NCBI RefSeq assembly: GCF_030068445.1
Contig: NZ_JAQPOK010000097.1
Coordinates: forward strand, 1-59,594
Direction of reading: 5' to 3'
Length of the DNA: 59,594 nt
Source: Roseofilum halophilum BLCC-M91
Lineage (GTDB): Bacteria > Cyanobacteriota > Cyanobacteriia > Cyanobacteriales > Desertifilaceae
A program made the translations under genes and the position numbers. The notes under the pieces are model-generated. The model made no database searches, was not told where the DNA came from, and saw only the letters and a list, made by a program, of their open reading frames with translations. Positions 9,666 to 28,515 of this stretch are shown here, piece by piece; within the stretch, counting starts at the first letter, position 1, and every line of letters begins with the position of its first letter.

Positions 9666-9691
9666 AAACAAGGGGTTTAAGCCCCTTGTTT
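9666..9691 (+). terminator. rho-independent terminator after the linker genes
   Basis: Perfect 10-bp arms AAACAAGGGG and CCCCTTGTTT around a 6-nt loop, running into T-rich sequence. It lies 53 bp after the linker stop, so it probably closes a cpcL-linker transcript. Confidence 0.8.
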
Positions 9692-9757
9692 TGATCTAAG
9701 AGAGTTGAAAAGTGCTGAGTGGAGAGAGCTGTGATACCTTCAGTAGCTTGTCAAAAA

Positions 9758-10048
9758 ATGCGAAATTGGATCAGAAATCGCTATTTAATCTGCTCCGGTA
9801 GTTTTTTTATCTTTCAAACTTTAGAATACTCGGCCGTAGAACGATTTGAAGAATGTGTCTCTAGTCTGGGTGGAACATTGATTTCAGTAGAACCGGCTAG
9901 ACGGGTTTGGATTGGTCAACATCGACAGGTGATTTTGTATCAAGCAAAGGCCAGCTTACATACTCCCAATCATGGTTTAAAACAGTATTGGTTACAATAC
10001 GGTAGTTTCTATACGAAATTTAATGACCCTTGCGGCTCTGATGGGTGA
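9758..10048 (+). CDS. small unknown protein with CpcD-like segment
   Basis: A 96-residue protein from the ATG at 9758 (a GTG at 9719 would add 13 residues). I do not recognise it by name. Residues about 10-45 (SGSFFIFQ, then RFEECVSSLGGTLISVEPA) have the spacing of the CpcD linker fold, where SGSVFIQ and RITRLGGKIVSI occupy the same places. This is from memory, not an alignment. The remainder is basic and aromatic. It sits just after two phycobilisome linkers but beyond their terminator. The frame ends FNDPCGSDG, while an overlapping +1-type frame continues with protein-like sequence (see 10023), so the gene may be frameshifted. Confidence 0.55.
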   Translation: MRNWIRNRYLICSGSFFIFQTLEYSAVERFEECVSSLGGTLISVEPARRVWIGQHRQVILYQAKASLHTPNHGLKQYWLQYGSFYTKFNDPCGSDG

Positions 10049-10127
10049 TCCGGGAATTGCAACTGCTTTATTCGGTTCTACTCCTAGTCAATGGGCTGAA
10101 AATACCGATACCCTCACAGATATATAG
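10023..10127 (+). CDS. overlapping 34-residue ORF, possible frameshifted C-terminus
   Basis: The ATG at 10023 lies inside the end of the preceding gene, in another frame. It encodes MTLAALMGDPG, then ATALFGSTPSQWAEN, ending at a TAG at 10125-10127. It looks like the C-terminal tail of the upstream protein displaced by an indel near 10020-10030, or a translationally coupled small gene. No separate ribosome site is apparent. Confidence 0.4.
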   Translation: MTLAALMGDPGIATALFGSTPSQWAENTDTLTDI

Positions 10128-10156
10128 CTGTCATAACTTGCAGAGATTGGGGGGAC

Positions 10157-11566: not shown

Positions 11567-11716
11567 AGGATTCCATAGGCGATGCTAGATTAAAAGTATT
11601 GGGGCAAGAGCTGGATCGGTTAAAATTTCCAGTCCGATGCTGAATGGGGGTGCAGGGAGTGAACTCTCCATAAGAACCCTAGTTTATTTGTGCTAACACT
11701 GAAGGAACATTAAATC

Positions 11717-13219
11717 ATGCAATTCCCCCTCATCCACCCAAAACTGGAAAAACCTCTGCCTTGGCTGTTGGGACTCGTAGCCGTTTCTGTCTTTACCGGC
11801 ACTGGAATCATGTACCTGAGCAGTGGGAGATCGACTTCTCAAGGGGAGGCGATCGCCTCCTTGACGGTTCCTGCCCAAGCCTCGACCCTCACTATTCGCA
11901 TCAATGCCAGTGGGGTAGTGCAACCCGTTAGGCGCGTTAATGTCAGTCCCAAAGTGCAAGGACGATTAGCCGAACTCTATGTGGAACAAGGCGATCGCGT
12001 GGAAAAAGGACAACCGATCGCCCGCATGGAACGGGAGGAACTCGAAGCCCAACTGCGGCAAGCCCAAGCCAGATTTACCCGCGTCCAAGCCGAACTCGAT
12101 AAGGCGATCGCCGGAACTCGCTCTGAAGACATTGCCGAAGCCCAAGCCAGACTCAGACGCGCCCAAGCCAATTTAGCCGAACTACAAGCCGGAAGTCGTC
12201 CGGAAGACATTGCCGAAGCCCAAGCTGCCCTCAGCCGCGCCCAAGCTCTGGTGGCTGAAGCCCAATCTCGGTTAGATTTAGCCCAAGAACGGGCGCAACG
12301 GAATCAACGCCTCGCCGATGAGGGAGCCATTTCCAGAGATGAACTCGATCAACGGCTTGACGATCGCCGCCGCGCCCAAGCCTATCTGGAGCAAACCCAA
12401 GCTGGGGCGATCGAGGCCCAACGCCGTCTAGAGCGCCTGCAAAATGGCACGAGAATTGAAGAGATTGCCCAAGCCCAAGCCACCGTCGCCGAATCCCAAG
12501 CCGCCCTAGACCGACTGGTGAATGGTACTCGCCCCGAAGATATTGCCCAAGCCCAAGCCCAACTCGCGGAAGCCAAAGGAAATCTGGAATACTACCAAGT
12601 GCAACTCGACGATACGGAAGTCAAAGCCCCCTTTTCTGGGTTAATTGTGCAGAAATATGCCGACCCCGGAGCCTTTGTTACCCCAGTCACCGCCGCCTCT
12701 TCAGCAGACTCGGCCACCTCAACCTCGGTTGTGGCTTTGGCCCAAGGATTGGAGGTTCTCGCCAAAGTCCCCGAAGCGGATATTAGCCAAATTTACCCCA
12801 ATCAAAAGGTGGAAATTGTTGCCGATGCCTATCCCGATCGCACCTTTGAAGGTCGCGTTCATCTGATTGCCCCGGAAGCAATTAATGAACGGGATGTTAC
12901 TTTGTTTCAAGTGCGAGTAGAAATTGAAACGGGCTTAGACTTGCTCCAGTCGGGGATGAATGTCGATTTGTCGTTTGTTGGCGATGAACTTACGGATGCC
13001 TTAGTTGTGCCCACCGTTGCCATTATTACCAATCAGGGAGAAACCGGGGTGTTAGTGCCTGGCGATCGCGATCGACCGGAATTTCAACCAGTAACAATTG
13101 GTTCCGTCTTAGGCAATCAGATCCAAATTTTAGAAGGCATTGAACCCGGTCAACCCGTGTTTGTGGAATTACCCGACGGCAAAACCCTAGATGAAATTAT
13201 TAAACGGGAGATCGAATAG
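11717..13219 (+). CDS. HlyD/MacA-type membrane fusion protein
   Basis: A 500-residue periplasmic adaptor. One N-terminal membrane segment (about 14-36) is followed by a biotinyl-lipoyl-like half (GRLAELYVEQGDRVEKGQPIARM), a long helical hairpin, the second half (DDTEVKAPFSGLIVQKY) and a beta-barrel/C-terminal domain. The hairpin contains four copies of a motif GTRxEDIAxAQA (DNA near 12112, 12190, 12447 and 12524), evidence of internal duplication. It belongs with DevB/MacA adaptors of ABC exporters. The permease starts 5 bp downstream. No ATPase gene is adjacent. Confidence 0.9.
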   Translation: MQFPLIHPKLEKPLPWLLGLVAVSVFTGTGIMYLSSGRSTSQGEAIASLTVPAQASTLTIRINASGVVQPVRRVNVSPKVQGRLAELYVEQGDRVEKGQPIARMEREELEAQLRQAQARFTRVQAELDKAIAGTRSEDIAEAQARLRRAQANLAELQAGSRPEDIAEAQAALSRAQALVAEAQSRLDLAQERAQRNQRLADEGAISRDELDQRLDDRRRAQAYLEQTQAGAIEAQRRLERLQNGTRIEEIAQAQATVAESQAALDRLVNGTRPEDIAQAQAQLAEAKGNLEYYQVQLDDTEVKAPFSGLIVQKYADPGAFVTPVTAASSADSATSTSVVALAQGLEVLAKVPEADISQIYPNQKVEIVADAYPDRTFEGRVHLIAPEAINERDVTLFQVRVEIETGLDLLQSGMNVDLSFVGDELTDALVVPTVAIITNQGETGVLVPGDRDRPEFQPVTIGSVLGNQIQILEGIEPGQPVFVELPDGKTLDEIIKREIE

Positions 13220-13224
13220 AGCGT

Positions 13225-14442
13225 ATGGACATTCTAGAAAGTATCACCATTGCCGGTAAAACCCTGCTGGGCAATAAAGTCCGCAGTAGTTTAACCATGC
13301 TGGGCATTATTATCGGTAACTCCTCTGTGATTGCCATGATTGGCATTGGTGAAGGGGCCCAAAATTTTGTCCGGGCTGAGGTCGATTCCTTGGGGCCCAA
13401 TGTGTTATTTGTGTTACCCGGTAGTCCAGAAGCGCAAAGACGACCCGTTTTTTCTCCCCAAACCCTGGTGCTTGAGGATGCCGAGGCGATCGCCGAACAA
13501 GTCCCGGATGTGGAAGCCGTCGCTCCCATGCTCACCGCCAGTGAAATGATTCAGTATCGGGGTCAAAATGTCTCCAGTTCTATTACCGGAAGTACCCCGG
13601 AATTACTCCCCGTTCGGAGTTTAGATGTGGCTAAAGGTCGGTTTATTACGGAATTGGATTTGAAGCGCCGAGAAACTGTCGTGGCTTTAGGCTCGGAATT
13701 AGCAGAACGGTTATTTGGCGACTTAAATCCTGTGGGGGAAACCGTGCGCTTAAAGTCCGTCAGTTTTCGCGTGGTTGGCGTGATGCAAGCGAAGGGTTCA
13801 TCCTTTGGCGATAACATGGATATGAGCGCCTATATTCCCCTGACTACCATGACCAATCGGATTACGGGGAACACTTCACCCTATGGGACTCAAGTGACGT
13901 TTATTTCCATTTCCATTCAGTCGGAAGATCGCATGGATGCCGCTAAGTTCCAGATCGAGAACCTGCTGCGTTTCCGACATAAAATCACCGATGAGGATGA
14001 TTTTACCGTGCGCTCCCAAAAGGAATTAATGAGTATTTTAGGGAGCATTACCGGAGCGCTCACGGTGATGTTGGCAGCGATCGCCGGAATTTCCTTACTC
14101 GTTGGCGGCATCGGTATTATGAATATCATGCTCGTCTCTGTGACCGAACGCACCCAAGAAATCGGGTTAAGAAAGGCGATCGGAGCATCGGAGCAAGATA
14201 TCTTGGTTCAGTTTATGATCGAAGCCGTAATTTTATCGATCATGGGTGGATTAATTGGTACGGGTGTGGGAATTGGTGGCATCTGGATCATTAGTATCTT
14301 CACTCCCCTAGAAGCCCAAATTTCCCTAATGGCCATTTCCACAGCCGTTGGTGTTTCCGGAAGCATTGGCCTATTTTTTGGCGTATTTCCCGCTCAACAA
14401 GCAGCCAAACTTGACCCCATTGTGGCCTTGCGTAGTGCTTAA
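13225..14442 (+). CDS. MacB/DevC-like ABC transporter permease
   Basis: A 405-residue permease of the MacB/FtsX type: one N-terminal membrane helix (about 20-42), a large periplasmic domain (about 45-270), and three C-terminal helices containing GGIGIMNIMLVSVTERTQEIGLRKAIGA, the family signature. It lacks the N-terminal ATPase domain of true MacB, so it needs a separate ATP-binding subunit. It is 5 bp after the fusion protein, clearly one operon. The expected ATPase does not follow: the next gene is icd after 167 bp. The exported substrate is unknown; relatives export glycolipids or peptides. Confidence 0.9.
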   Translation: MDILESITIAGKTLLGNKVRSSLTMLGIIIGNSSVIAMIGIGEGAQNFVRAEVDSLGPNVLFVLPGSPEAQRRPVFSPQTLVLEDAEAIAEQVPDVEAVAPMLTASEMIQYRGQNVSSSITGSTPELLPVRSLDVAKGRFITELDLKRRETVVALGSELAERLFGDLNPVGETVRLKSVSFRVVGVMQAKGSSFGDNMDMSAYIPLTTMTNRITGNTSPYGTQVTFISISIQSEDRMDAAKFQIENLLRFRHKITDEDDFTVRSQKELMSILGSITGALTVMLAAIAGISLLVGGIGIMNIMLVSVTERTQEIGLRKAIGASEQDILVQFMIEAVILSIMGGLIGTGVGIGGIWIISIFTPLEAQISLMAISTAVGVSGSIGLFFGVFPAQQAAKLDPIVALRSA

Positions 14443-14609
14443 GCCACCCTCAGATACCCATTACCCATTACCCATTTTTCCCTCCCCACCACTAAACCTG
14501 GAAAAAAGATAAATCCTTGACCGGTTTGCCAAAAGGATCTGGTAGCCTGGTACGTGCTTTAACCGAACACCGGTAAGCACAAATCCTTAATGTCAGGAAT
14601 GATTACCTT

Positions 14610-16034
14610 ATGTACGAGAAAATTACCCCTCCCGAAACCGGCGAAAAAATCACCTTTGCTGAAGGTAAACCCATTGTTCCCGACCATCCCATCATTCCCT
14701 TCATTCGTGGAGATGGTACGGGGGTAGACCTTTGGCCCGCCTCTCAGAAGGTCTTTGATGCGGCAATTCAAGCGGCCTACGGCGGAAAACGGAAAATTTC
14801 CTGGTGTAAGGTGTATGCGGGTGATGAAGCCTGCGATCGATATGGAACCTACCAGTATTTACCCGAAGATACCCTCAAGGCGATCGGCGAATATGGAGTC
14901 GCCATTAAAGGCCCCTTAACCACCCCCATTGGTGGCGGTATTCGCTCCCTCAACGTGGCTTTGCGGCAAATCTTCGATCTGTATGCTTGTGTGCGTCCCT
15001 GTCGTTACTACGCTGGAACGCCCTCACCCCACAAAACCCCAGAGAAAATGAATGTGATTATCTATCGGGAAAATACCGAAGATATTTACTTGGGTATTGA
15101 GTGGCGCGAAGGCACAGAGATCGTTAAGAAGTTAATTGAATACCTCAATACTGACCTCATTCCGGCCACCCCTGAACATGGCAAAAAGCAAATCCGCCTC
15201 GACTCTGGCATTGGCATTAAGCCCATCAGTAAAACTGGAACCCAACGACTGGTGAAGCGGGCGATCGAAAACGCCCTCCGGCTACCCAAAGAAAAACAAA
15301 TGGTGACCTTGGTTCATAAAGGTAATATTATGAAATATACTGAGGGAGCCTTCCGCGACTGGGGTTATGAGTTAGCAACCACTGAGTTTCGCGACCAATG
15401 TGTTACCGAGCGCGAATCCTGGATTTTGAGCAATAAAGAAGAAAATCCAGACATTAGTTTAGAAGACAATGCTCGCAAACTTGAACCGGGTTATGATGCC
15501 TTAACCACCGATAAAAAACAAGAAGCCTGTGCGGAAGTTAAAGCCGTTCTGGAGGCGATCTGGGAAACCCACGGTAATGGCAAATGGAAAGAAAAAGTCA
15601 TGGTCAATGACCGGATTGCCGATAGTATTTTTCAACAACTACAAACCCGTCCCGGAGAATATTCGATCCTCGCCACCATGAATTTAAATGGGGATTATCT
15701 TTCGGATGCTGCGGCTGCCATTGTCGGGGGTTTAGGTATGGGCCCAGGGGCAAATATTGGCGATACTTGTGCGATTTTTGAAGCCACCCATGGTACTGCC
15801 CCCAAACACGCAGGTTTGGATCGGGTTAATCCGGGATCGTTGATTCTTTCGGGAGTCATGATGTTGGAGTACATGGGTTGGCAAGAAGCAGCAGACTTAA
15901 TCAAAATGGGCATCGAAAAGGCCATTTCTAATCGGGAAGTGACCTATGATTTAGCCCGATTAATGGAGCCTCCGGTTAAGCCCCCTCTGAAATGTTCGGA
16001 GTTTGCGGACGCGATTATTAAATACTTTGGCTAA
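14610..16034 (+). CDS. icd: NADP-dependent isocitrate dehydrogenase
   Basis: A 474-residue enzyme that oxidatively decarboxylates isocitrate to 2-oxoglutarate, the carbon skeleton for ammonium assimilation in cyanobacteria. Substrate-binding sequence [57 protein letters not shown] and the cofactor-side [11 protein letters not shown] are all present. It is longer than the enterobacterial enzyme because of an insertion around residues 255-320, which is usual in cyanobacteria. An AGGAA ribosome site precedes the ATG. It stands alone. Confidence 0.96.
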
Positions 16035-16049
16035 GTCCAGATAAGCTGG

Positions 16050-16085
16050 GTAGGTTGGGTTGAGGCAGGTTTCAACCCAACCTAC
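16050..16085. repeat. inverted repeat between icd and ndk
   Basis: 14-bp arms GTAGGTTGGGTTGA and TCAACCCAACCTAC around an 8-nt loop. It could serve as a terminator structure between the convergent icd and ndk, but there is no T-run. It belongs to the general class of GTAGG-type palindromes seen across the window. Confidence 0.7.
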
Positions 16086-16149
16086 AATTTTAAGCTTGCT
16101 AGTCCAGTACAAAATAATACTGTAACTCCGTTACAGCGCAAAGCATTGC

Positions 16150-16599
16150 TTATTCGTGTATCCAGGACATCATGGTAGGCTGCCAAGACACTAATTCTTC
16201 TTCTTTAAACCATAGGGCAATTTCGTTTTGAGCCGTTTCAATCGCATCCGAACCATGGATCAAATTGCGGCCCACATCAACCCCAAAATCGCCGCGAATG
16301 GTTCCGGGTTCTGCACTTAAGGGATTGGTTGCGCCGATCATTTTCCGAGCTGATGCGACGACTCCATCCCCTTCCCAGACCATGGCGACTACTGGCCCGG
16401 ACGTAATAAACTCGATTAAGCTACTGAAAAACGGCCGTTCTTTATGCACAGCATAATGCTGCTCGGCTAGTTCCCGACTGACATTGATCAACTTTAAGCC
16501 CACTAATGTAAAGCCTTTGCTTTCCAAGCGACTGATGATGTTACCCACGAATCCCCGTTGCACACCGTCGGGTTTAATGGCGAGAAAAGTACGTTCCAA
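16150..16599 (-). CDS. ndk: nucleoside diphosphate kinase
   Basis: A 149-residue enzyme that transfers the gamma phosphate between nucleoside tri- and diphosphates. The active-site segment NLIHGSD has the phospho-accepting His115. The N-terminal [10 protein letters not shown] and the RPFF and ATNP motifs are typical. Length is standard for the tetrameric or hexameric bacterial type. The start at 16599 has AGGAG about 9 bp upstream on the minus strand. Confidence 0.96.
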
Positions 16600-19039: not shown

Positions 19040-20809
19040 GTGAAATTTCCTTTATCTTCTATTCTGGTTTTGAGTACAGTGGCGATCGCCGCTCCTGCTT
19101 TCGCTGACTCTGATATCTTTATTGCTTATCCGAGCGATCGCCATCAAACCACCGCCGATCGCATCTTCCTCATTGGCACAGCTCCCGTTGGCGGCGAAGT
19201 CAAAGTCAATGGTCAAGTAATTTCCCGTTCTCCTAGCGGGCATTTTGCCCCCAGTTTTCCCCTGGAAATGGGCGAGAATACCTTCACCCTGCGCCATGGC
19301 AACCAGGAACACCAGATTACCATTATCCGCAAATCTGCCCTTCCTCCCCCTCCCGTCGGTCTCAACTTTGCCCAAGGATCGCTCACTCCCCAAGTCAACA
19401 TCGCCAAACCTCCCGGAGAACAAATCTGTTTTTCCGCCGTTGCTCCCACCCAAGCCACCGTCAGCGTTACCCTAGGGCAACAAACCCTACCCCTAACCCC
19501 CCTCTCCACCCTTCCCCAACTGCCGCCCAATTCTGCGGTTCTCACCGGAGAAAACAAACCCACCACCGTCGAAAGCAACACCTATAAAGGCTGTGCCACC
19601 CTTCCCCTCACCTCAGCAGCGCAAAATTTGGGCAAACCCCAATTTACGCTTACTCTGAACGGCCAAACCTTAACCCAAGCAGCTCCTGGAGAAATATCCA
19701 TCCTTTCGCCCCTAGAATTTCAAATTGCCGAAGTCACCGCCGAAAATGGAGTCGCTCGTACCGGCCCTAGTACGGACTATTCCCGCTTAACCCCCCTTCC
19801 CAAAGGAACCCGCGCCCAAATTACCGCCGAAGAAGGGGAATGGCTCAGATTAGACTATGGCGCATGGATCAAGCGGGAAGAAACCCGGATTTTTTCCAGT
19901 GCCGCCCCTCCCGTTTCCCGTATCCGGAGTATTCGAGGTCGTCAAATGCCGGAATGGACGGAAATTGTCTTTCCCCTACAAGTTCCCGTTCCCGTCAGCA
20001 TTCAGCAGCGCCAAGACACTATAACCCTGAGTTTGTACAATACCACCGCCCAAACCGATACCATTTATCTCAACGATGACCCCCTGATTAAGCGCCTAGA
20101 TTGGGAACAGGTTTCACCGACACGCATCGACTATACATTTGCCCTCAAAACCGAGCAACAATGGGGCTACAAGCTCCGTTATGAGGGCACAACCTTGATT
20201 TTGTCGTTACGCCATCCTCCCCAGGCTTCTCGGTCATCCTCGCAACCCTTGCAAGGGATGAGAATTTTGCTCGATCCCGGCCATGGCAGCGAGAATGATT
20301 TAGGCGCGAGGGGGCCAAATGGCTATCCAGAAAAAGATGTGAATTTGGTGGTCTCGAAGCTGCTGCGGGATGAGCTGCAAGAAAGAGGTGCAACGGTTGT
20401 GATGACGCGGGAAGGGGATGATGACCTCTGGCCCCATGACCGGGTGGAGATCATTGAAGCCCAAGAACCGGATCTAGCTCTGAGCATCCATTATAATGCC
20501 CTACCCGATGCTGGGGATGCGGAGAATACGGCGGGGGTAGGTATGTTTTGGTATCATCCCCAGGCTCATGGTTTGGCGGTGTTTTTGCATCAGTATTTGG
20601 TGGAGGAGCTAAACCGGCCCTCCTATGGGGTATTTTGGAATAACTTGGCCCTGACTCGGCCGGCGATCGCCCCTTCCGTCCTCTTAGAATTAGGATTCAT
20701 GATTAACCCCCTAGAATTCGAGTGGATCGTCGATCCCCAGTCTCAACAAGAACTCGCCAACACTCTCGCTGATGGTATTGTTGTTTGGGTGAGTGAAAGC
20801 CAACAGTGA
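19040..20809 (+). CDS. N-acetylmuramoyl-L-alanine amidase with SH3b domain
   Basis: A 589-residue secreted cell-wall hydrolase that cleaves the amide bond between muramic acid and the stem peptide. It starts at GTG 19040, giving a clean signal peptide (residues 1-22, cleavage after AFA). Then comes a beta-rich region, an SH3-like domain (about 232-285, VARTGPSTDYSRL), an AMIN-like region (about 300-395) and an Amidase_3 domain (about 408-585). Zinc ligands are His416 (LLDPGHG), Glu432 (PEKDVN) and His484 (SIHYN); catalytic Glu550 is in LLELGF. AmiC-type enzymes act in daughter-cell separation and septal communication in filamentous cyanobacteria. Confidence 0.92.
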   Translation: MKFPLSSILVLSTVAIAAPAFADSDIFIAYPSDRHQTTADRIFLIGTAPVGGEVKVNGQVISRSPSGHFAPSFPLEMGENTFTLRHGNQEHQITIIRKSALPPPPVGLNFAQGSLTPQVNIAKPPGEQICFSAVAPTQATVSVTLGQQTLPLTPLSTLPQLPPNSAVLTGENKPTTVESNTYKGCATLPLTSAAQNLGKPQFTLTLNGQTLTQAAPGEISILSPLEFQIAEVTAENGVARTGPSTDYSRLTPLPKGTRAQITAEEGEWLRLDYGAWIKREETRIFSSAAPPVSRIRSIRGRQMPEWTEIVFPLQVPVPVSIQQRQDTITLSLYNTTAQTDTIYLNDDPLIKRLDWEQVSPTRIDYTFALKTEQQWGYKLRYEGTTLILSLRHPPQASRSSSQPLQGMRILLDPGHGSENDLGARGPNGYPEKDVNLVVSKLLRDELQERGATVVMTREGDDDLWPHDRVEIIEAQEPDLALSIHYNALPDAGDAENTAGVGMFWYHPQAHGLAVFLHQYLVEELNRPSYGVFWNNLALTRPAIAPSVLLELGFMINPLEFEWIVDPQSQQELANTLADGIVVWVSESQQ

Positions 20810-20820
20810 GATGACCTGGT

Positions 20821-20971
20821 GAGGGCGGGTTCAGGATATTGATGGGTTGGTATCCTAGATTTAGGTATAACCCGCCCCTACAAAATCAATCAAGAATTCC
20901 CCATTCCTGTAGGGGCAGGTTTAACCCTATCCCCCATATCCCATCCATAACTTTTGTAAACCTGCCCCCAC
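20821..20971. repeat. pair of palindromic repeats, B-type then A-type
   Basis: B unit at 20821-20881 (GAGGGCGGGTT to AACCCGCCCCTAC) followed by A unit at about 20909-20971 (GTAGGGGCAGGTTT to AAACCTGCCCCCA). The same B/A order, linker included, recurs as a tandem array at 22718-23142. Confidence 0.8.
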
Positions 20972-21030
20972 AAACCCCAATTTTTAATTCTTAATTTTAA
21001 ATTTTTAATTGATATCAGATAGGAGTATCT

Positions 21031-21777
21031 TCACCCAAGCTGCGGCTTTCCTAGAAAGTGCAGATCAATTCGGAAGTGATAACCGCCACGGTCATAAACC
21101 CCATCTAAAATGGGCTTTAGATCGAAGACTAAGGAATTCTCTCCACCCTGCAACGGTAACTCAACCTTGGGAATAGCGTCCGGCAAATTGAAGGCATAGA
21201 GTTGGGCATGGGGCCTGTTATCCCAACGACTCACCAAAATCCGATAGTCTTTAAACTGAGTTACCCCTTGCATCGGCATCGGTTTTCCCCCTCGGAGTAA
21301 ATCAATCTCGACTAAGTGTGTGGCACTGGTCAAAATGCTCTGACGCTTACGCAGATAGGATTCTTTCCCCTCTCCCGCTCGTTTGTTCTTGGGTGAGAGT
21401 AGCTCAATTACGGTTACCACCCGTCCCGTTTTGGTCTCCCGAATTTCTAAATACCGCTCTTCTACCTCCTCTGCCAATGCTACCGTCACCGTTTGCGCTT
21501 CATCGGGTTTCGACAATGTTGCCGTTGAGGTTGGGTTTTGTTCCAATTCCTGTGCAGATTTCACCTCTGGAGCGATAACCGAAACATCGGGAATACCAAT
21601 GAGGACGCTATCTTCTGGGGTACTCAAATAAACACGCTTTTCTATGGCCACATAATAGTTCGGCAGTAAGGTTGGTGCAATATTATCTGCAATAGCAACA
21701 ATCAAACGGCTATGCACTTCAGACCAGAGGTCTGGATGCTCCAGATAGGGATTCATTCCAGGAAATGGGGAAGCCAT
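21031..21777 (-). CDS. DUF4058 family protein
   Basis: A 248-residue protein with the characteristic start FPGMNPYLEHPDLWSEVHSRL and the middle motif VIELLSPKNKRAGEGKESYLRKRQ. This matches DUF4058, a cyanobacterial family of unknown function, possibly nuclease-like by the ELLSPKNK motif (an inference from its E-x-K pattern). Length is normal. It stands alone between repeats. Confidence 0.88.
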   Translation of the reverse strand: MASPFPGMNPYLEHPDLWSEVHSRLIVAIADNIAPTLLPNYYVAIEKRVYLSTPEDSVLIGIPDVSVIAPEVKSAQELEQNPTSTATLSKPDEAQTVTVALAEEVEERYLEIRETKTGRVVTVIELLSPKNKRAGEGKESYLRKRQSILTSATHLVEIDLLRGGKPMPMQGVTQFKDYRILVSRWDNRPHAQLYAFNLPDAIPKVELPLQGGENSLVFDLKPILDGVYDRGGYHFRIDLHFLGKPQLG

Positions 21778-21945
21778 GGGAATTTTATGTTATTTCTTAA
21801 CTTATGATAAACGGCGCGATGCCCCATGCGAATGATCCAAGGTTGAGCGTTGGGATTGCCCTCAACTGAGTGTTTTGTCTTGATTATAGTCTCGGAATTG
21901 GGCGTTAGCAGAGCTTTCCGTAGGAATCGCCTGAATTTATGGTTG

Positions 21946-22006
21946 GGGGGCGGGTTCAGGACATTGATTTGTTGGTGTCCTAGATATTGGTATAACCCGC
22001 CCCTAC
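21946..22006. repeat. palindromic repeat, B-type
   Basis: A 61-bp copy running from a G-rich variant of GAGGGCGGGTT to AACCCGCCCCTAC, with a middle nearly the same as the unit at 20821. The rest of the 21778-22082 spacer shows nothing else. Confidence 0.8.
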
Positions 22007-22082
22007 AAAATTAATTAACGAAATCATGCGAGCAGTTGGAATGGTATACTTTTCCTAAGATTTGCAGTTTTGAGAAGAGGCA

Positions 22083-22334
22083 ATGGTTAGTCAGGTTAAA
22101 GGGATTTATCACCAGGGATGGATAGAACTGATTGAACCGCCTGATGATTGGGTGGAAGGGAGTTCGGTTGTGGTGACGTTTGTAGGCTCCAATGAGATTA
22201 ACTTAGAGGCTCAGGGAATCACTCAGGAGGAAGCAGGACGTTTACGAGAAAGTCTAGCCTCATTTGCAGAGGATTGGGAGAGTCCAGAAATGAGTGTTTA
22301 TGACAACTATGACGCAGCCAAAACCAACGGTTAG
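22083..22334 (+). CDS. putative antitoxin upstream of MazF-type toxin
   Basis: An 83-residue protein starting VKGIYHQGWIELIEPPDDWVEGSSVVVTF, the small beta-strand start seen in cyanobacterial antitoxins of this type, followed by an acidic helical C-terminus (EEAGRLRESLASFAEDWESPEMS). An AGAGG site precedes the ATG. Its 3' end overlaps the toxin frame by about 35 bp, indicating coupled translation. The assignment as antitoxin rests mainly on the neighbouring toxin. Confidence 0.75.
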   Translation: MVSQVKGIYHQGWIELIEPPDDWVEGSSVVVTFVGSNEINLEAQGITQEEAGRLRESLASFAEDWESPEMSVYDNYDAAKTNG

Positions 22335-22668
22335 CCGGGGTGATGTGGCCTTAGTGCTTTTCCCCAATTCTAATCTGACTTCTGCTAAAACTAGACCGGC
22401 TTTAATCGTGCAAGCCGATAATTTACAAACGGGGTTATCACAGATTATTGTGGCTATGGTAACTAGCCAAATGTTTCGAGCGGGTCATCCGAGTCGGGTG
22501 ACTGTTTTACTCAATTCTCCTGTAGGAGGGCAGTCGGGTTTACTCACTGATTCAGTGATTATGACGGATAATTTAGCAACCATATCTCTGGCTGCGGTTT
22601 ATCGCGTGATTGGTTCGATACCGACATCAGAGATTGATATAGCATTGAGGCATACACTGGGATTGTAA
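22300..22668 (+). CDS. PemK/MazF family toxin (putative endoribonuclease)
   Basis: About 122 residues. RGDVALVLFPNSN and KTRPALIVQADN are the MazF/PemK hallmarks, followed by LLTDSVIMTDNLATIS. Such toxins cut mRNA and are held in check by the partner antitoxin. Possible starts are GTG 22294, ATG 22300 and ATG 22309; all lie inside the antitoxin gene. No key motif is missing, so the pair may be functional. Confidence 0.87.
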   Translation: MTTMTQPKPTVSRGDVALVLFPNSNLTSAKTRPALIVQADNLQTGLSQIIVAMVTSQMFRAGHPSRVTVLLNSPVGGQSGLLTDSVIMTDNLATISLAAVYRVIGSIPTSEIDIALRHTLGL

Positions 22669-22717
22669 AGAGAGAAAACTGACCGATATAAAATCAAAAG
22701 CATGATTCCCAATTCTT

Positions 22718-23142
22718 GTAGGGGCAGGTTTAACGATATCCCCCATTTCCCATCCATAACTTCTGTGAACCTGCCCCCACCTCTACCGAAATGGTGAGGG
22801 CGGGTTCAGGACATTGATTTATGTGTGTCCTAATTGTTGGTGAACCCGCCCCTACGAATCAATTAATAATTCCCCATTCTTGTAGGGGCAGGTTTAACCA
22901 TATCCCCCATTTCCCATCCATAACTTTGGTGAACCTGCCCCACCCCTACCGGAAGGGTGAGGGCGGGTTTAGGACATTGATTTATGTGTGTCCTAATTGT
23001 TGGTATAACCCGCCCCTACGAATCAATTAATAATTCCCCATTCTTGTAGGGGCAGGTTTAACGATATCCCCCATATCCCATCCATAACTTTTGTGAACCT
23101 GCCCCCACCTCTACCGGAAGGGTGAGGGCGGGTTTAGGACAT
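22718..23142. repeat. composite palindromic array, 164-bp period
   Basis: About 2.6 copies of a composite unit: A palindrome (GTAGGGGCAGGTTTAAC to GAACCTGCCCC), a short linker with CTACCGGAAGGGTG, B palindrome (GAGGGCGGGTT to ACCCGCCCCTAC), then a spacer ending CCCCATTCTT. A units start at 22718, 22882 and 23046, an exact 164-bp period; B units start at about 22796, 22959 and 23124. The last B is cut after about 19 bp, where it enters the vWA gene, whose stop codon (23134-23136) lies within it. Confidence 0.9.
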
Positions 23143-25017
23143 TTGGATCAAATCCACATATTTTTGATACCAATCCGAATGACGCTCTTTCACCCATTTC
23201 GGGATCGACTCTAAGCCATCAGGATCATCACCTAACTTACGACCCAATGGATCAAGGATATCATCGATTTCTTTAACGAGATCAAAGATAAAGATATTGC
23301 AAGGATTTCCATCTTTATCTTTATTTGCTTTCCTCACATTAAAATCTAGATCCAAGAAATCTTCAACAACATTATTAACATCTTCTCCCATCCCTAACAA
23401 GAGAACTTTTAACTCAGTTTCATCAGTCAACTCTTTACAAGTTTTTTGTAGCAAAGCAGCAAATTCATCTCTATCATCTAACATCCCATCTGTATAGATA
23501 ATGATGAATGCTTTTTTCCCTTCTCGACGACTACCCTCTTTCCAAGTATTTAAACAGGCTTCTAGAGTAGGGACAACAAAAGTATTACCATTAGGAAAAT
23601 TTTCTTCAAAAATATTACTACCTAACTTGTTGGGTGGAATTTTGAATTTACGTCCTACTCGTTCTCGACTGAACAGGTATAGAGTGACATATTCACAAAT
23701 TTTCTTCCCTCCTCCTTGGTCTTTGAGAAGCAAGTCGATATCACCTTGTAAGGCTTCTGGCATCAGTTCCCACCGACTTTTCTGTTTTCCTCTGTCTTTT
23801 TTAGTCATCGATGAGCTTTGATCGACTAAGATGAATACTTCACGGTTTAACATAGGATTCTCCTTTTCCCCTGAGATGAAATTTGAGATAAAATTCTGCG
23901 TTTCTTGTACCCATATATCATTAAAAATATTATGATACAGCCTGTTGGAAACGTTGATATAATTTTCAGATTTGGCTGCCAAACCTGATACAATCAGATT
24001 GATTTGCTCTTCACGACCTCCATCAAAGTAAATTTCATTTGCTGATGTTAACAATTGTTTATATAACTCTAGAGCGTGGATTCGCTCCTCAACCGTAGTA
24101 TAGCCGTTTCTGAACCATCGTTCAATCTCTTGGAAATGGGACAGGGGGTCATGACTACGCCAGTTATTAATCAGTTTTTGTTCAAGCAAGTCTTGCAGCG
24201 CTGTAGGGATATCTTCATCTCCGGTAATGTTCAGTTCTTCAATACAGAGATTACAAACTACCTGAGTTAAAAATGGCTTACCCCCTGTCCAGATTAGAAT
24301 CTCTGCAAATAGTCGCTTAGGATCGCAATTTAATTCTGATAATCCTTGAATTAAGGCGCTACAGTCCCCCTCATCTAACCGTCCTAATTCAATCCCTTTC
24401 GCTGTGTTGAACGCCACAGCCGGATCGGTGAGAATGTCTGTAGGTTTAGCCACACCTAAAAGCACAAACTTAACGGACTTCAAGGTTTCCTCTTGTCCTA
24501 ACGCTCTGAGCAAACCCAGAAAACTATTTTGCAGCTTCCAAGAAATTAGACTCTGGATTTCATCCAAGAAAATGATCAGTTTTTCTGTCCCTTTTTTCCG
24601 CAGATACTGCATCAGATATTTTAAGGATTCTCTAAATTGTAAAGCGGACGGATAATTAGCCATCTCTTGCGAACGCTGCTCAATATTCTGAGTCAGCAGT
24701 CGAGCTTCAGGTGCGGGAAAAGTCGCTGCTATCTCCCAGAGTAAACTTTGGCAAAGTGAAGCTTCATTAATGGTTGAACCAAACCCTTGTAAATTCATCG
24801 TCACGCAATGATAACCAGCATCTTGTTGTAATTTATCGGCAATCCGAATCATTAAAGAGGTTTTACCCGATTGTCGTGCTGCGAGAATAAAACAACATTG
24901 TTGCGTCGTCTCTTGGGTTAAAATTTTATAGAGTGCCCAGTCAGCAAGACGCTGAATGTAGGTTAATGCTTCTAAGGATAACGCTCCTCCTTTTGCACCT
25001 TGAAAGTATTGGCTCAT
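23134..25017 (-). CDS. AAA-like ATPase fused to von Willebrand A domain
   Basis: A 627-residue protein. Residues about 8-340 form an AAA_35-type NTPase: Walker A AARQSGKTSL (about 46-55), Walker B LIIFLDEIQSL (147-157), then LLGVAKPTD. Residues about 391-590 form a vWA domain with an apparently complete metal site: Asp399-x-Ser401-x-Ser403 (VDQSSSM), Thr479 (GNTF) and Asp510 (IYTDGMLDD). No signal peptide. I chose the ATG at 25017: GAGG is 9 bp upstream, and MSQYFQGAKGG begins the NTPase family. Longer starts extend into the upstream gene, whose stop is 4 bp away. vWA plus NTPase modules occur in NTP-dependent conflict systems and chaperone-like complexes. The last two codons and the stop come from the repeat array. 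Confidence 0.85.
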   Translation of the reverse strand: MSQYFQGAKGGALSLEALTYIQRLADWALYKILTQETTQQCCFILAARQSGKTSLMIRIADKLQQDAGYHCVTMNLQGFGSTINEASLCQSLLWEIAATFPAPEARLLTQNIEQRSQEMANYPSALQFRESLKYLMQYLRKKGTEKLIIFLDEIQSLISWKLQNSFLGLLRALGQEETLKSVKFVLLGVAKPTDILTDPAVAFNTAKGIELGRLDEGDCSALIQGLSELNCDPKRLFAEILIWTGGKPFLTQVVCNLCIEELNITGDEDIPTALQDLLEQKLINNWRSHDPLSHFQEIERWFRNGYTTVEERIHALELYKQLLTSANEIYFDGGREEQINLIVSGLAAKSENYINVSNRLYHNIFNDIWVQETQNFISNFISGEKENPMLNREVFILVDQSSSMTKKDRGKQKSRWELMPEALQGDIDLLLKDQGGGKKICEYVTLYLFSRERVGRKFKIPPNKLGSNIFEENFPNGNTFVVPTLEACLNTWKEGSRREGKKAFIIIYTDGMLDDRDEFAALLQKTCKELTDETELKVLLLGMGEDVNNVVEDFLDLDFNVRKANKDKDGNPCNIFIFDLVKEIDDILDPLGRKLGDDPDGLESIPKWVKERHSDWYQKYVDLIQMS

Positions 25018-25021
25018 TTCC

Positions 25022-26362
25022 TTAATCCTCATGATTAACCGGTCGATGTTCTTGGAAATATTCCTGATACAACCTGCAACGCACCTGATATTGACCATTT
25101 TCGATTTTAATTAACCCAGCTTTTTCGAGTTGAAACTTAGCAAATTCATTCACACAGGGTTGCCCTTGCAGAATTTGTTCAAAGCATTGAGCGAGTTTGG
25201 GGTGGTCTTGCAGTAAGCTAAGTTTCTTTTGCAAATGCCCAATTAAAGGGCTATCGGGTTGTTTTACTTTGTCTAAAAATTCATTGAGATTCAGTCCTTT
25301 TTGTTTAATATGATAAAAGGCATGATTGAGTAACTCTGGATATCCCCCTAGCCAGTCTTTGAGTTGAAGAACTTCCTGTTTTTTCCACTTCAGATCGTAT
25401 TTTTTAGCTAGAGATTCTATTTGACTATCATTGAATTCATGAAGCTCTAAAGGCAAGCCTACATTGTCCAAAGGACTGCCAGATAACTCATATTGGGCAT
25501 ACGGTTCGCTACTGTAAGCCAACAATAAATGAGGAAAAACTAACTGCTGATCGCGACTAACTTTTTTCATGTGCTGCTCATGCCATGAGCGCAGGAGCTG
25601 AAGAAATGGCGATTGAATAGGTTCTAGCCCGATGACTCTATCAACTCCGTCAATAATTAGGGTTTTAGGATCGGGAATTTGAGAAAAAACATAAGCCTCT
25701 AAGTAGTCCGTGCAACGAATGCCTACAGCGATCTTCTTTTGCCAAAAATCATCTAAACCATCGGAATTACATCCAAATGCTTGGGTAACTATATAGGCGA
25801 AATTATATAAAAATGTCTCCAAATCTTCAAAAACTGTATCCTCAAGATTCGATAAATCGATACGGGCAACTTGATGCTTAAGCTCAGTTGATAACCATTC
25901 TTCGATTCGCAATAATAAACTTGACTTTCCTAAACCCTGTGCGCCCTTGATCCGTAATAATAATCGCTGATCGTATGGAAGATTTCTAAACTCCTGCTCG
26001 ATTCTATCTTGTATGTTTCGCCATACATAAAGAGGAGAATCAACGGAGAGAACCCCACTTGACGAAGGTATAGGGCGCTCTTTCTGTATCTTCGCCCTCA
26101 ACGGATGATCCTCTGCTACCATCTCAGGATTATGTTGTATAAATAGACTCAGTAGCTTGGGTTGCTTGCTTCCCTTGCCTGCGATCTGGAAATGCTTGTA
26201 CACCTCCGACAAATGCTTTCTCACAGTTCCATCAGCTAGATGCTTGGCTTGAGCAATATCTTTTGCTGTCTGTCCGGCCAAAAAGGACAGAAGGATCTCG
26301 TAACGCTCTGGTGCTGAGTCCTTGAGCGTTTGGAGTCGTTGGTGAAATTGACTTTTGTCCAT
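25022..26362 (-). CDS. HTH domain plus STAND/AAA-like NTPase
   Basis: A 446-residue protein. The N-terminal helix-turn-helix (about 15-62; LAGQTAKDIAQAKHL, then GTVRKHLSEVYKHF) is of the LuxR/sigma-like kind found at the N-terminus of vWA-MoxR-associated proteins. A NTPase follows with Walker A KGAQGLGKSSLLLR (about 139-152) and Walker B TLIIDGVDRV (about 234-243), then helical and winged-helix-like segments (GGYPELLNHAFYHIKQKG; LEKAGLIKIENGQYQVR). It is immediately upstream of the AAA-vWA gene, one operon. The ATG at 26362 lies 6 bp after a TATAAT box, suggesting a leaderless mRNA. Its function is unproven; a sensor or signalling NTPase in a conflict system is inferred. Confidence 0.82.
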   Translation of the reverse strand: MDKSQFHQRLQTLKDSAPERYEILLSFLAGQTAKDIAQAKHLADGTVRKHLSEVYKHFQIAGKGSKQPKLLSLFIQHNPEMVAEDHPLRAKIQKERPIPSSSGVLSVDSPLYVWRNIQDRIEQEFRNLPYDQRLLLRIKGAQGLGKSSLLLRIEEWLSTELKHQVARIDLSNLEDTVFEDLETFLYNFAYIVTQAFGCNSDGLDDFWQKKIAVGIRCTDYLEAYVFSQIPDPKTLIIDGVDRVIGLEPIQSPFLQLLRSWHEQHMKKVSRDQQLVFPHLLLAYSSEPYAQYELSGSPLDNVGLPLELHEFNDSQIESLAKKYDLKWKKQEVLQLKDWLGGYPELLNHAFYHIKQKGLNLNEFLDKVKQPDSPLIGHLQKKLSLLQDHPKLAQCFEQILQGQPCVNEFAKFQLEKAGLIKIENGQYQVRCRLYQEYFQEHRPVNHED

Positions 26363-26368
26363 ACGCGG

Positions 26369-26374
26369 ATTATA
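26369..26374 (-). promoter_or_regulatory. -10 box (TATAAT) of the HTH-NTPase operon
   Basis: A consensus TATAAT on the minus strand with only 6 bp (26363-26368) to the ATG at 26362, so transcription should begin at or next to the start codon. No strong -35 is seen at 17-18 bp. Confidence 0.6.
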
Positions 26375-26423
26375 CCATAGTGTTGAGATGCGTAGTCGAT
26401 AAAATTAAGTGCGTATTCTTATG

Positions 26424-26453
26424 TTGACACTGTGTAAGCAAGTGCGTTAGTAT
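26424..26453 (+). promoter_or_regulatory. putative promoter TTGACA-N18-TAGTAT
   Basis: A perfect -35 TTGACA (26424-26429) and -10 TAGTAT (26448-26453) on the plus strand. It would drive a short transcript into the hairpin at 26480 and, if read through, into the two small ORFs at 26554-26906. Confidence 0.5.
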
Positions 26454-26479
26454 CGAAATTAAGACTAGACAATAAAAAA

Positions 26480-26509
26480 GCCCAAGACAATTGGGTTGTT
26501 GTCTCAGGC
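26480..26509. terminator. terminator-like hairpin, stronger on minus strand
   Basis: Arms GCCCAAGACAA and TTGTCTCAGGC (9 of 11 paired, 8-nt loop). On the minus strand it is followed by TTTTTTATT, a good terminator. On the plus strand it is followed by TTAAATTTTTA, so it may attenuate the plus promoter 27 bp upstream. Confidence 0.6.
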
Positions 26510-26553
26510 CTTAAATTTTTATCTACAACCATCATAACATGATGGTCACGCCT

Positions 26554-26748
26554 ATGAAATTTTTCCGAAAAGAGCGCCATGTCAGGGTTCTGATAGGTTT
26601 CTGGACTCTGTTCCATGCTTGGCCCCTACTGCTGGGAATGTGCAAGACCTTTGGCGGTTTTACCCTCTATCTATGCGTTGGAGGGTGGCAAAACCGTAAA
26701 GGTATCCCCATTTTAGAAGTTAATTGGGTGGTGGAGGCACATTACTAA
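26554..26748 (+). CDS. small unknown protein, 64 residues
   Basis: Not recognised. It has a basic N-terminus (MKFFRKERHVRVL), then a long hydrophobic, aromatic stretch (about residues 11-47, rich in Leu, Phe and Gly) that could be membrane-associated. Its stop overlaps the start of the next ORF by one base (TAATG), which favours real, coupled genes. No clear ribosome site lies before the ATG at 26554; an earlier ATG is at 26539. Confidence 0.4.
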   Translation: MKFFRKERHVRVLIGFWTLFHAWPLLLGMCKTFGGFTLYLCVGGWQNRKGIPILEVNWVVEAHY

Positions 26749-26906
26749 TGAACGATGAATTTGAATTTTCTGACGCTTCCTCTAATGAAGAGATCTTAGA
26801 TCTGCTCTATGAACTCTTACAAGACTACGGAAATAAGGCAAATCAGGAAGCTGTTTACCTAGAAGTTAATGGCGATGTTTTCATTGTCCCCATTGCTCCT
26901 AGCTAA
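26748..26906 (+). CDS. small acidic protein, 52 residues
   Basis: Not recognised. It is highly acidic (MNDEFEFSDASSNEEIL) with a predicted helix, then a beta hairpin EAVYLEVNGDVFIVPI. GGAGG at about 26732 precedes the ATG at 26748, and the start overlaps the previous stop (TAATG). Composition and coupling would suit a small antitoxin or accessory protein, but this is inference. Confidence 0.5.
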   Translation: MNDEFEFSDASSNEEILDLLYELLQDYGNKANQEAVYLEVNGDVFIVPIAPS

Positions 26907-26917
26907 TCTCGTGCCCG

Positions 26918-26951
26918 ATCCCTCTTCTCAAAACCTTACCAGAAGAGGGAT
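26918..26951. terminator. hairpin with perfect 11-bp arms
   Basis: Arms ATCCCTCTTCT and AGAAGAGGGAT around a 12-nt loop, between the small plus-strand ORFs and the truncated toxin. It lacks a good T-run, so it is either a bidirectional transcript end or a repeat. Confidence 0.5.
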
Positions 26952-26962
26952 TACCCCAAGTT

Positions 26963-27154
26963 TTACCCTATCCATTCAATCGAGTTATCGGCTTTAGGAA
27001 TAACGCTTATAGGGGCGATCGGGGGATCGATATCTGCCAGTTCCCGATATACGGCTTCTGGAATAATGATGGGACTGTAGAGTTGAGGTAACAAGTCTAA
27101 ATGGGCGATCGCTGCCAAATTCGTTATTACTGAAGTATCGCTAACAACAATCAC
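26963..27154 (-). pseudogene. truncated DUF3368/PIN-domain toxin
   Basis: Only 63 residues, beginning VVSDTSVITNLAAIAHLDLLPQLY and reaching IIIPEAVYRELAD. This is the start of the DUF3368 PIN-like toxin family, whose full members are about 150-165 residues. The frame stops after SIEWIG, losing most of the nuclease core, and no continuation is visible downstream. The GTG start overlaps the UPF0175 stop by 4 bp (GTGA), the normal arrangement of an intact pair, so truncation came later. Confidence 0.75.
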
Positions 27155-27399
27155 AAGCGCCCCAACTCCCGCAGATTTCTGACATCCAACTCAAAATCCT
27201 CCACATCATAGGAATAAAGAGGAATCTGGCGCTGCTCTAGAAGCTGACGGAACTGATGCAGTGACAAATTAGCCAACTGAGCTGCATAACCTACCGTCAA
27301 GCGTCCGCTTTCAAACAAATACAACGCAATTTCCTGACGAAACTCATCAGGAGTCAGTCGAGAAGCTTGCAGGATTTCATCAGAAATAACAATACTCAT
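27151..27399 (-). CDS. UPF0175 family antitoxin
   Basis: An 82-residue protein of the UPF0175 family: EFRQEIALYLFESGRLTVGYAAQLANLSLHQFRQLL, a helix-turn-helix-like body that pairs with DUF3368 toxins. The start overlaps the previous gene's stop (ATGA at 27396-27399) and the end overlaps the truncated toxin. Its cognate toxin is broken, so it survives as an orphan antitoxin. Confidence 0.85.
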   Translation of the reverse strand: MSIVISDEILQASRLTPDEFRQEIALYLFESGRLTVGYAAQLANLSLHQFRQLLEQRQIPLYSYDVEDFELDVRNLRELGRL

Positions 27400-27641
27400 C
27401 CGACTAACTCCACCTTCAATTCCACTTCATCAAATGCTGGCAGTTCATCGCCCCTAGCAACACCAATTAACACCCATTCTTTCAACACCTCTAACAGCTC
27501 TTGGCGACATTCTTCAACAGTCTCACCCATTGCCCAGACTCCAGCCGCACCAGGAATTGACCCATAAAAACCCTCTTCTTCCAGGAATTCATAACTCGCT
27601 GTCTCCATGGCTTTTTGTAGATACTCTTGAATCACAACCAA
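27396..27641 (-). CDS. HicB-like antitoxin
   Basis: An 81-residue HicB-type protein. The partial RNase-H-like fold is visible: EEEGFYGSIPGAAGVWAMGETVEECRQELLEVLKEWVLIGVARGDELP. The C-terminal DNA-binding domain of long HicB proteins is absent. No HicA toxin is adjacent. It is overlapped by the UPF0175 gene (4 bp), and its own start lies 6 bp after the VapB-like gene. A deleted second copy is found at 28257-28327. Confidence 0.82.
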   Translation of the reverse strand: MVVIQEYLQKAMETASYEFLEEEGFYGSIPGAAGVWAMGETVEECRQELLEVLKEWVLIGVARGDELPAFDEVELKVELVG

Positions 27642-27647
27642 TGCCTC

Positions 27648-27926
27648 CTATTGTCCAATTTGTCGCTGTTCCTTATAATGATAATGTTCATCGTAATCAA
27701 TCGTGCCAAACAACTCAACGATCTTCAGTTGTCTTTGACGTTGAATATACTCTTGCAAAGCCGCTTCAATTAACTCTGTAGGTGTAGGATAGTCACTCAA
27801 ATCGAGAGCTTCTTGAAGCAATTTAGGATTAATTTCAATTAAAGTGCCTATGCTCTTCTCTTCCATCCGTTTATTTAGGGTTGTATTCATCCTAACCATA
27901 TTAGCATCAAACAGAATCCTCATCAC
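27648..27926 (-). CDS. VapB-type antitoxin (ribbon-helix-helix)
   Basis: 92 residues. The core matches short VapB antitoxins: IGTLIEINPKLLQEALDLSD, then TPTELIEAALQEYIQRQRQLKIVELFGTIDYD. The annotated start (GTG 27926, or ATG 27923 overlapping the upstream stop) gives about 15-25 extra residues before the family core, so an internal ATG may also be used. No VapC toxin follows. Confidence 0.78.
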   Translation of the reverse strand: MMRILFDANMVRMNTTLNKRMEEKSIGTLIEINPKLLQEALDLSDYPTPTELIEAALQEYIQRQRQLKIVELFGTIDYDEHYHYKEQRQIGQ

Positions 27927-28177
27927 TTATACTTTTCTAGCAAATAGCTAACATACTCATCCTCAATCCTTTCCTCGTCCCATTCGACATCTGCTAAAAT
28001 CCCTCTTAAACCCGTTAACGTTCCCGGTTTAATAGGCTGACTTTCTCCAGAATCCGGGTCAGTTGACAACAGAAAATCAACATAGTCTAAAACCTTCGAC
28101 TGTAAAGACTGAGGCAACCATTGCAATCGTTCCACGACTTGCTTGCTGATGGTATTCTCGGATGGTATTCCTGCCAT
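27923..28177 (-). CDS. DUF2281-like putative antitoxin
   Basis: 84 residues with QVVERLQWLPQSLQSKVLDYVDFLL, the DUF2281 helix, and a C-terminal acidic tail (LADVEWDEERIEDEY). The family is usually found as the antitoxin-like partner of PIN toxins. It is the first gene of the minus-strand antitoxin run and overlaps the next gene by 4 bp. Confidence 0.75.
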   Translation of the reverse strand: MAGIPSENTISKQVVERLQWLPQSLQSKVLDYVDFLLSTDPDSGESQPIKPGTLTGLRGILADVEWDEERIEDEYVSYLLEKYK

Positions 28178-28256
28178 GGGTCTCTCCTAAGTCAACGGAT
28201 TAATACTATGGTAAACTGAAAAACTCATATGGCGATATCCCTGTGGCGATTTTCAG

Positions 28257-28327
28257 AGCGATCGCCCCTAACCACCCCAATCAACACCCATGGCTTCTTG
28301 TAGATCCTCTTGAATCACAACCAACAT
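28257..28327 (-). pseudogene. internally deleted hicB copy
   Basis: Read on the minus strand, the start MLVVIQEDLQEAM matches the start of the intact HicB-like protein (MVVIQEYLQKAM). It runs directly into a segment encoding WVLIGVVRGDR in another frame, matching WVLIGVARGDE near the HicB C-terminus. About 50 codons are missing and the frame is broken. The rest of the 28178-28560 spacer contains no supported gene. Confidence 0.7.
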
Positions 28328-28515
28328 CCCCCATTTGCCCAGGTTTTGGGCGCACCTACCGCTTATTGAAGTCCCAAAAGCCTTTTGACCCCAATTACCC
28401 GATCCGCCTCCCCAATCCCCTCTCCTTGATATGCCAGGCACTCTCTACAACGATAAGGGAACATTCCGATAGCAATATTTCTTTAAGAAATGTGTCACAG
28501 GGGACACAAACCTGA

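Follow-up and report, generated by a model that had tools for sequence, protein, structure and literature searches.

In a 59,594-nucleotide stretch of the cyanobacterium Roseofilum halophilum BLCC-M91 (contig NZ_JAQPOK010000097.1; the whole of this stretch is called the window), two neighboring minus-strand genes, here named A and B, form a module built on two paralogous NTPases of the Pfam family AAA_35 (PF14516). From sequence comparisons, we give an even chance to the proposal that A and B make up an autoregulated STAND switch split over two proteins, and the pair possibly belongs to a conflict or defence network. A preliminary description had reported a helix-turn-helix (HTH)-NTPase gene and, 4 bp beyond its end, an AAA_35-vWA gene with an apparently complete metal site, the metal-ion-dependent adhesion site (MIDAS), and this is confirmed. 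Its view of the two genes as a coherent module is also borne out, the order A then B being recurrent in cyanobacteria. The parts of the pair are as follows.

25022..26362, minus strand: gene A, N-terminal HTH (LuxR/GerE-like, residues ~1-90) and AAA_35 STAND-type NTPase
25049..26059, minus strand: NTPase domain of gene A (AAA_35), at most 8 residues left to the C-terminus
23134..25017, minus strand: gene B, AAA_35 STAND-type NTPase and vWA
23920..24987, minus strand: AAA_35 domain of gene B, residues 11-366; Walker A ARQSGKT, Walker B FLDE, GGKP motif
23218..23853, minus strand: vWA domain of gene B, residues ~389-600, complete MIDAS

Two STAND-type NTPases

In a Pfam scan, A scores 258.2 bits against AAA_35 and B 58.8 bits (cut-off 27). 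The modelled ATPase of B resembles STAND NTPases in fold, with archaeal 2qen, plant NLRs, CED-4 and MalT (8bob) among its Foldseek matches, so that B appears to join a predicted NB-ARC/CED-4-like fold to retained Walker A, Walker B and GxP motifs. Among 62 aligned A-B pairs, the Walker A lysine is present in 61 A and 62 B domains, the Walker B aspartate in 59 of each, and the second glycine and the proline of GGxP in every A and every B. The loss of Walker or MIDAS residues across the family, which the preliminary description had named as a result that would count against it, is not seen; one broken MIDAS is taken up below. The arginine after Walker B is invariant in the 62 A domains (R258 of gene A, in an LLRxWxE motif), and the B column has Arg 53 times, Lys eight times and Leu once. 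STAND NTPases are not known to have an arginine finger; R258 is a possible trans-acting one.

Could the pair instead be a fused relative of the MoxR-vWA ternary (VMAP) systems, in which a chaperone-like ATPase would remodel a substrate caught by the vWA? The preliminary description had proposed such a compact, fused variant. ATPase and MIDAS vWA do stand in one chain in B, and the MIDAS-bearing vWA is a feature of the VMAP systems; in the sections of Kaur et al. 2020 (PMC7159879) on which we draw, MoxR-vWA conflict systems are reported from cyanobacteria. The likeness to those VMAP/iSTAND systems extends to the effector repertoire and to domain variation between close relatives. The window pair, however, has no MoxR; both of its NTPases are STAND-type and keep their Walker motifs, a vWA and an NTPase share one chain, and an HTH is the putative output.

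Neither A nor B has a match at E<=1 to AAA_3 or AAA_5, which we take to be the Pfam models covering MoxR, and no VMAP or iSTAND model is among the matches at E<=1 of ten window proteins, in a library whose coverage of those models was not checked. Both ATPases are AAA_35 by family and that of B is STAND by fold; the C-terminal position of B is taken by several exchangeable domains, of which the vWA is one, and the vWA is elsewhere fused to an HTH with no ATPase at all. The fused MoxR-vWA reading was accordingly dropped, and we consider it very improbable.

Recurrence of the module and exchange of its ends

How general is the arrangement? AAA_35 was found at E<=0.001 in 20 of 59 genomes of the window's phylum (18 of them above cut-off) and in none of 14 control genomes. 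The scan of the 59 genomes gave 124 rows, of which the 98 with at least 40 bits were used, 47 being A-type domains (more than 200 bits) and 51 B-type; within 1.5 kb on the same strand, a B-type domain lies downstream of 22 A-type domains and upstream of four. In 214 loci picked by similarity, a biased set in which the same place may recur, there are 104 adjacent pairs, 96 of them A-B, four A-A, three B-A and one B-B. When duplicates and A genes shorter than 300 aa are dropped, 63 A-B pairs remain; in 59 of these no more than 20 residues of A follow its NTPase, and the NTPase of B starts by residue 45 in 61, with six pairs deviating.

In general form, A is X-AAA_35, X being HTH, TIR, CHAT, kinase, trypsin, cyclase or EAD, and B is AAA_35-Y, Y being WD40, TPR, GAF, CHAT, HEPN-dynamin or vWA. 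Among the best 25 of 35 families with matches in the 63 A proteins are GerE (9), CHAT (9), TIR_2 (7), Pkinase (3), GGDEF (2), Trypsin_2 (2), and EAD1, EAD4 and Guanylate_cyc (one each), and further A proteins open, by eye, with other HTH-like stretches. Fifty B tails were scanned (13 of the 63 were left out as cut off or short), and ten match WD40, only propeller families being among the matches listed; other B proteins end in GAF, TPR-CHAT or kinase-TPR tails. The genome of the window has a second AAA_35 pair (contig C125 of G000, locus L221, 3271-7614; G and L numbers are our own for genomes and loci), whose A carries GerE (above cut-off), TIR_2 (slightly short of it) and AAA_35, and whose B has AAA_35 and a tail of no assigned family.

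With TIR, CHAT, trypsin, EAD1, EAD4, cyclase and kinase as effector domains held in common, the wider family upholds the link to NTP-dependent conflict systems that had been suggested for the pair. It also brings forward a different explanation, an anti-invader system of the abortive-infection type, in which the A-B complex or the vWA would be a toxic or blocking effector and the HTH would hold expression low until infection. The CHAT, TIR_2, Trypsin_2, EAD1 and EAD4 N-termini counted above favor it. Against it, the Pfam scan of the window proteins finds a catalytic effector domain in neither A nor B, and PADLOC gives only weak matches, the best at E=4e-4 across a short stretch. We think this explanation somewhat unlikely, and return to it where other evidence bears on it.

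Several features suggest that A and B would touch one another and work together. B-type and A-type NTPases are fused in three natural proteins (L217, L218 and L219), with a cyclase domain between the halves in one of them, and L140 encodes two B-type NTPases in one protein. Distances among A proteins follow those among B proteins (Mantel r 0.905, 62 pairs), and they do so when the vWA group is removed (r 0.634, 46 pairs); in each case 0 of 2000 permutations gave a correlation as high. The three fusion genes adjoin A genes and genes for large proteins with a C-terminal B-type NTPase, a mirrored form of the module.

AAA_35-vWA genes themselves were found at 16 distinct places, the window counted, and an A gene lies directly upstream at 13 of them; named holders include Laspinema sp. 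D2d, Laspinema olomoucense D3b and Nostoc sp. FACHB-152. In all 12 A-B(vWA) pairs of the 63, A has an N-terminal extension of 92-122 aa, which by eye resembles an HTH alone. Two of the 16 places (L039 and L047) have further genes between A and B. These five-gene operons (L039, in G080, 7300-16507; L047, in G081, 5451-14538) run HTH-AAA_35, AAA_35-HEPN_Swt1-dynamin, DO-GTPase2, a gene of no known family (~300 aa) and AAA_35-vWA, and their HEPN retains, by eye, the RNxxxH motif. At the remaining place (L132, in G345), AAA_35-vWA comes after a dynamin gene and a DO-GTPase2 gene whose score is sub-threshold. Dynamin_N scores 23.6 in L039, below the cut-off of 27, and 29.2 in L047, above it; DO-GTPase2 scores 44.5 bits in L039, 32.1 in L047 and 25.9 in L132, the last below the 27-bit cut-off.

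The HEPN_Swt1, dynamin-like and DO-GTPase2 domains of the five-gene form are a further point for an anti-invader system. They also liken L039, L047 and, with no adjacent A, L132 to the DO-GTPase systems; in the sections of PMC7159879 used here, cyanobacteria are said to lack GTPase-centric systems almost completely. The window pair differs from these systems in having none of those genes, and no DO-GTPase gene is among the ten window proteins scanned.

The vWA is found in other company as well. Four complete HTH-vWA fusions have no NTPase (L049, L050, L051 and L131), and both of their halves match the window proteins. At L052 (G001, 162-2412), an HTH-vWA fragment opens the contig, and genes for an AAA_15/AAA_21 ATPase and a DUF3226 protein come next. 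A constant place in a metabolic or chaperone operon would have spoken against the conflict-system view of the preliminary description; no such operon surrounds the homologues among the loci listed. On viral contigs, no B relative was confirmed among 16 pattern matches, and of 42 plasmid records with AAA_35 relatives none spans 80% of B.

The clearest exchange of an end is seen within the genus. The congener G004 holds the same locus, with A and the B ATPase 86% identical to those of the window, and there the vWA has been replaced.

23143..23883, minus strand: vWA-coding segment, replaced in G004; flanks of 87 and 92% DNA identity
22702..23143, no strand assigned: interspersed repeats, three 114-nt copies of period 164; the last overlaps the B stop codon, and the 3' break point of the swap lies here

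In place of the 741-bp vWA segment G004 has 985 bp coding for two small domains unlike vWA, namely a domain X1 on B and a separate X2 gene. One break point of the swap is the NTPase/vWA boundary, and the other is inside the interspersed repeat at the 3' end of B. Interspersed repeats of the form GGGCGGGTT...AACCCGCCC lie around the DUF4058 gene and at the 3' end of B (window 20817-23143), and are possible recombination points. Neither X1 nor X2 has a Pfam match above cut-off or a PHROG match at E<=0.1; X2 is present in two of 99 genomes and X1 in one, and the model of X2, built from two sequences, is poor (mean predicted local distance difference test score, pLDDT, 44.9). Homology between X1 and X2 was considered and is unsupported (hhalign probability 0.5 on a 100 scale). 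In the congener G003, one of the two small domains is fused to B, at a different genomic place. A remnant in G005 (L048, 8736-9263) joins a VapB-like start to the tail of a vWA gene, at another chromosomal place. The swap of a B domain between congeners would also suit an anti-invader system.

Direct repeats upstream of gene A

Does the HTH of A act on the module itself? Three operator-like repeats lie upstream of A in the window.

26389..26393, minus strand: ACGCA repeat 1, operator-like, at -31 from the A start
26410..26414, minus strand: ACGCA repeat 2, operator-like, at -52, exactly 21 bp from repeat 1
26443..26447, minus strand: ACGCA repeat 3, operator-like, at -85, 33 bp from repeat 2

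ACGCA stands at -72, -51 and -30 in G004, at -97, -76 and -55 in G003, and at -55 and -34 in the Laspinema genome G084; across the window and these three, every step is 21 bp but one of 33. The 21-bp pair is found in four of 14 LuxR-type A promoters, including that of G084, which belongs to another family, and this recurrence suggests that A may bind its own promoter. The motif was chosen after the promoters had been viewed, so that G084 is its sole independent test. In all loci of at least 8 kb (4.02 million strand-bases), there are ten ACGCA pairs at exactly 21 bp; seven of them fall within promoters of A genes, in four genomes, and the G084 site enters this number twice. The extended pattern TACGCA-N15-WACGCA has a single site in G003 and a single site in G084, each at the A promoter.

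vWA pairs whose A has a winged HTH offer a parallel. In G019 and G086, GAAGCATTA occurs twice at the A promoter, the sole such pair in each genome (reversed control 0); looser forms are present in G005 and the G092 group, and none in G080 and G081. Two HTH classes with two repeat types support the interpretation of the repeats as operators, and we take the ACGCA repeats as candidate operators that A may bind. A generic direct-repeat scan of 58 A upstream regions scored at least 10/12 matches in 15 genes, which makes this score uninformative; only G003 and L165 reach 12/12.

In the switch that we propose, A would bear the output, its HTH, N-terminal to one STAND NTPase, and B would bear an exchangeable C-terminal domain, here the MIDAS vWA, after the second, paralogous NTPase. 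While the cell is at rest, A would occupy the direct repeats of its own promoter, probably as a complex with B. The vWA would take up an acidic peptide or protein by way of its MIDAS metal; nucleotide exchange would then allow both NTPases to co-assemble, and transcription of the operon would change, upward or downward. The assembled A-B complex would be the active signal, and the HTH would act first on the module's own promoter.

Some observations weigh against this proposal. No more than four of the 14 LuxR-type promoters have the 21-bp pair, three of these four belong to congeners, and the pair is absent from all four HTH-vWA promoters. The reversed control of TACGCA-N15-WACGCA gives three sites in G003, where there is one real site, and none in the other four genomes. 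The pattern also occurs away from A promoters in G017 (two sites) and G045 (one), and it is missing from G004 because the repeats there vary. In the window's own genome, TACGCA-N(14-18)-ACGCA has four sites and the reversed control three. As to the pairing, 21 of the 47 A-type domains in the 59 genomes have no adjacent B-type domain, the AAA_35-vWA gene of L132 has no A in 12 kb on the dynamin side, and shared species history adds to the mirror-tree correlation of A with B. The broken MIDAS is that of L047.

The ten other LuxR-type A promoters lack the 21-bp pair: G017 has a single ACGCA at -180, G045, G056, Nostoc FACHB-152 and L. olomoucense have none, and the remaining five (WD40-type or similar pairs) have none. 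It is also absent from five winged-HTH promoters. In the window's own genome no regulon is claimed, as the three sites outside the window are inside long open reading frames (ORFs).

One might think that the pair is an ordinary MalT-type regulator of transcription that responds to stress or nutrients and is unconnected with conflict. A STAND NTPase with a LuxR-type HTH, a promoter with direct repeats, and MalT among the Foldseek matches of B are all in keeping with this. MalT-type regulators bind directly repeated sites. However, their LuxR-type HTH is at the C-terminus, and that of A is N-terminal; no metabolic gene is kept beside the pair among the loci listed, and an island setting and domain swapping would be unusual for a housekeeping regulator. 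We regard such a regulator as unlikely.

The island and the wider family

The pair lies in a genomic island.

20799..28456, no strand assigned: island with the pair, a DUF4058 gene and toxin-antitoxin-type genes; site empty in G001, G002 and G003

In these three congeners an Amidase_3 gene is directly followed by an Epimerase gene, and in the window 7.66 kb separate the two. Among five genus-mates, then, the site is empty in three and filled in G004; in G005 that side is occupied by other genes, and about 250 bp of the island's right end are retained. G+C is 0.40-0.43 in 2-kb windows from 22 to 28 kb and 0.45-0.49 alongside, the lowest others being 0.44-0.45. The toxin-antitoxin-type genes are of the PemK, VapB, UPF0175, UPF0150 and DUF2281 types. 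A run of small genes (UPF0175, UPF0150, VapB, DUF2281; 26963-28177) lies on the same strand upstream of A, and the PemK-type gene is beyond the end of B on the opposite strand.

Such genes, on an island that is patchy in the genus, would fit an anti-invader system. The preliminary description had allowed that small ORFs nearby supply an effector. These neighbors are toxin-antitoxin-type genes, and among the loci listed G004, where the island is the same, is the only one in which they are seen again; as effectors of the module they were dropped. Near the empty site of G002 (L255, 5007-11181; the same ORFs in G001, L256), two genes, one STAND-like (463 aa) and one WD40 (1562 aa), lie between isopropylmalate-dehydrogenase-like and Uma2 genes; the region around the site may be prone to such insertions.

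How does the pair compare with known systems? With the STAND NTPases, among them MalT, plant NLRs, CED-4/APAF-1 and archaeal ATPase_2, it has in common the P-loop, Walker B, GGxP and an NB-ARC-like fold. STAND NTPases have output and sensor on opposite sides of the NTPase, whereas the window pair splits output and variable domain over two adjacent, paralogous NTPase genes.

An HTH in the slot of TIR, caspase or EAD has a precedent in TRADD-N proteins with an N-terminal ECF-like HTH, which is interpreted as a transcriptional response in the sections of Kaur et al. 2021 (PMC8195603) used here; that system is built on TRADD-N and not on an AAA_35 pair. At the Thiohalocapsa diversity-generating retroelement (DGR) 8 locus, an HTH gene replaces VMAP beside the ATPase, which its authors treat as an alternate effector mechanism; as far as the portions of that paper used here describe it (PMC10907252), the locus has a MoxR-like ATPase and a DGR target, with neither an AAA_35 pair nor a vWA. 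Sigma70 homologues with an AAA_35 accessory domain (PMC11119718) are probably A-type proteins counted as sigma-factor homologues, and the portions of that paper on which we draw do not mention pairing, function or a B partner. AAA_35 pairing is likewise not described in the parts of the DGR literature (PMC10907252, PMC7517822) used here, and a search that left supplements outside its scope found no literature on PF14516, or on an AAA-like domain with WD40 in cyanobacteria.

A broader proposal, which we hold a little short of evenly balanced, is that the AAA_35 pairs would form a so far undescribed class of split STAND receptors that extends across the cyanobacteria, in which A would carry the output (HTH, TIR, CHAT, protease, kinase, cyclase or EAD) and B the sensor (WD40, TPR, GAF, vWA, HEPN-GTPase or orphan domains). 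The two NTPases would have to meet for the receptor to fire, modules would swap at the NTPase boundary, and HTH members would bind their own operators.

NLR-like receptors usually hold output, switch and sensor in one chain, and here these are seemingly split over two paralogous switches. This is a common cyanobacterial family with interchangeable ends, and one member has an apparent DNA operator of its own. If the proposal is true, a simple promoter assay could report the nucleotide-dependent assembly of an NLR-like pair, and the domain swaps found in nature would reveal how STAND partners recognise each other.

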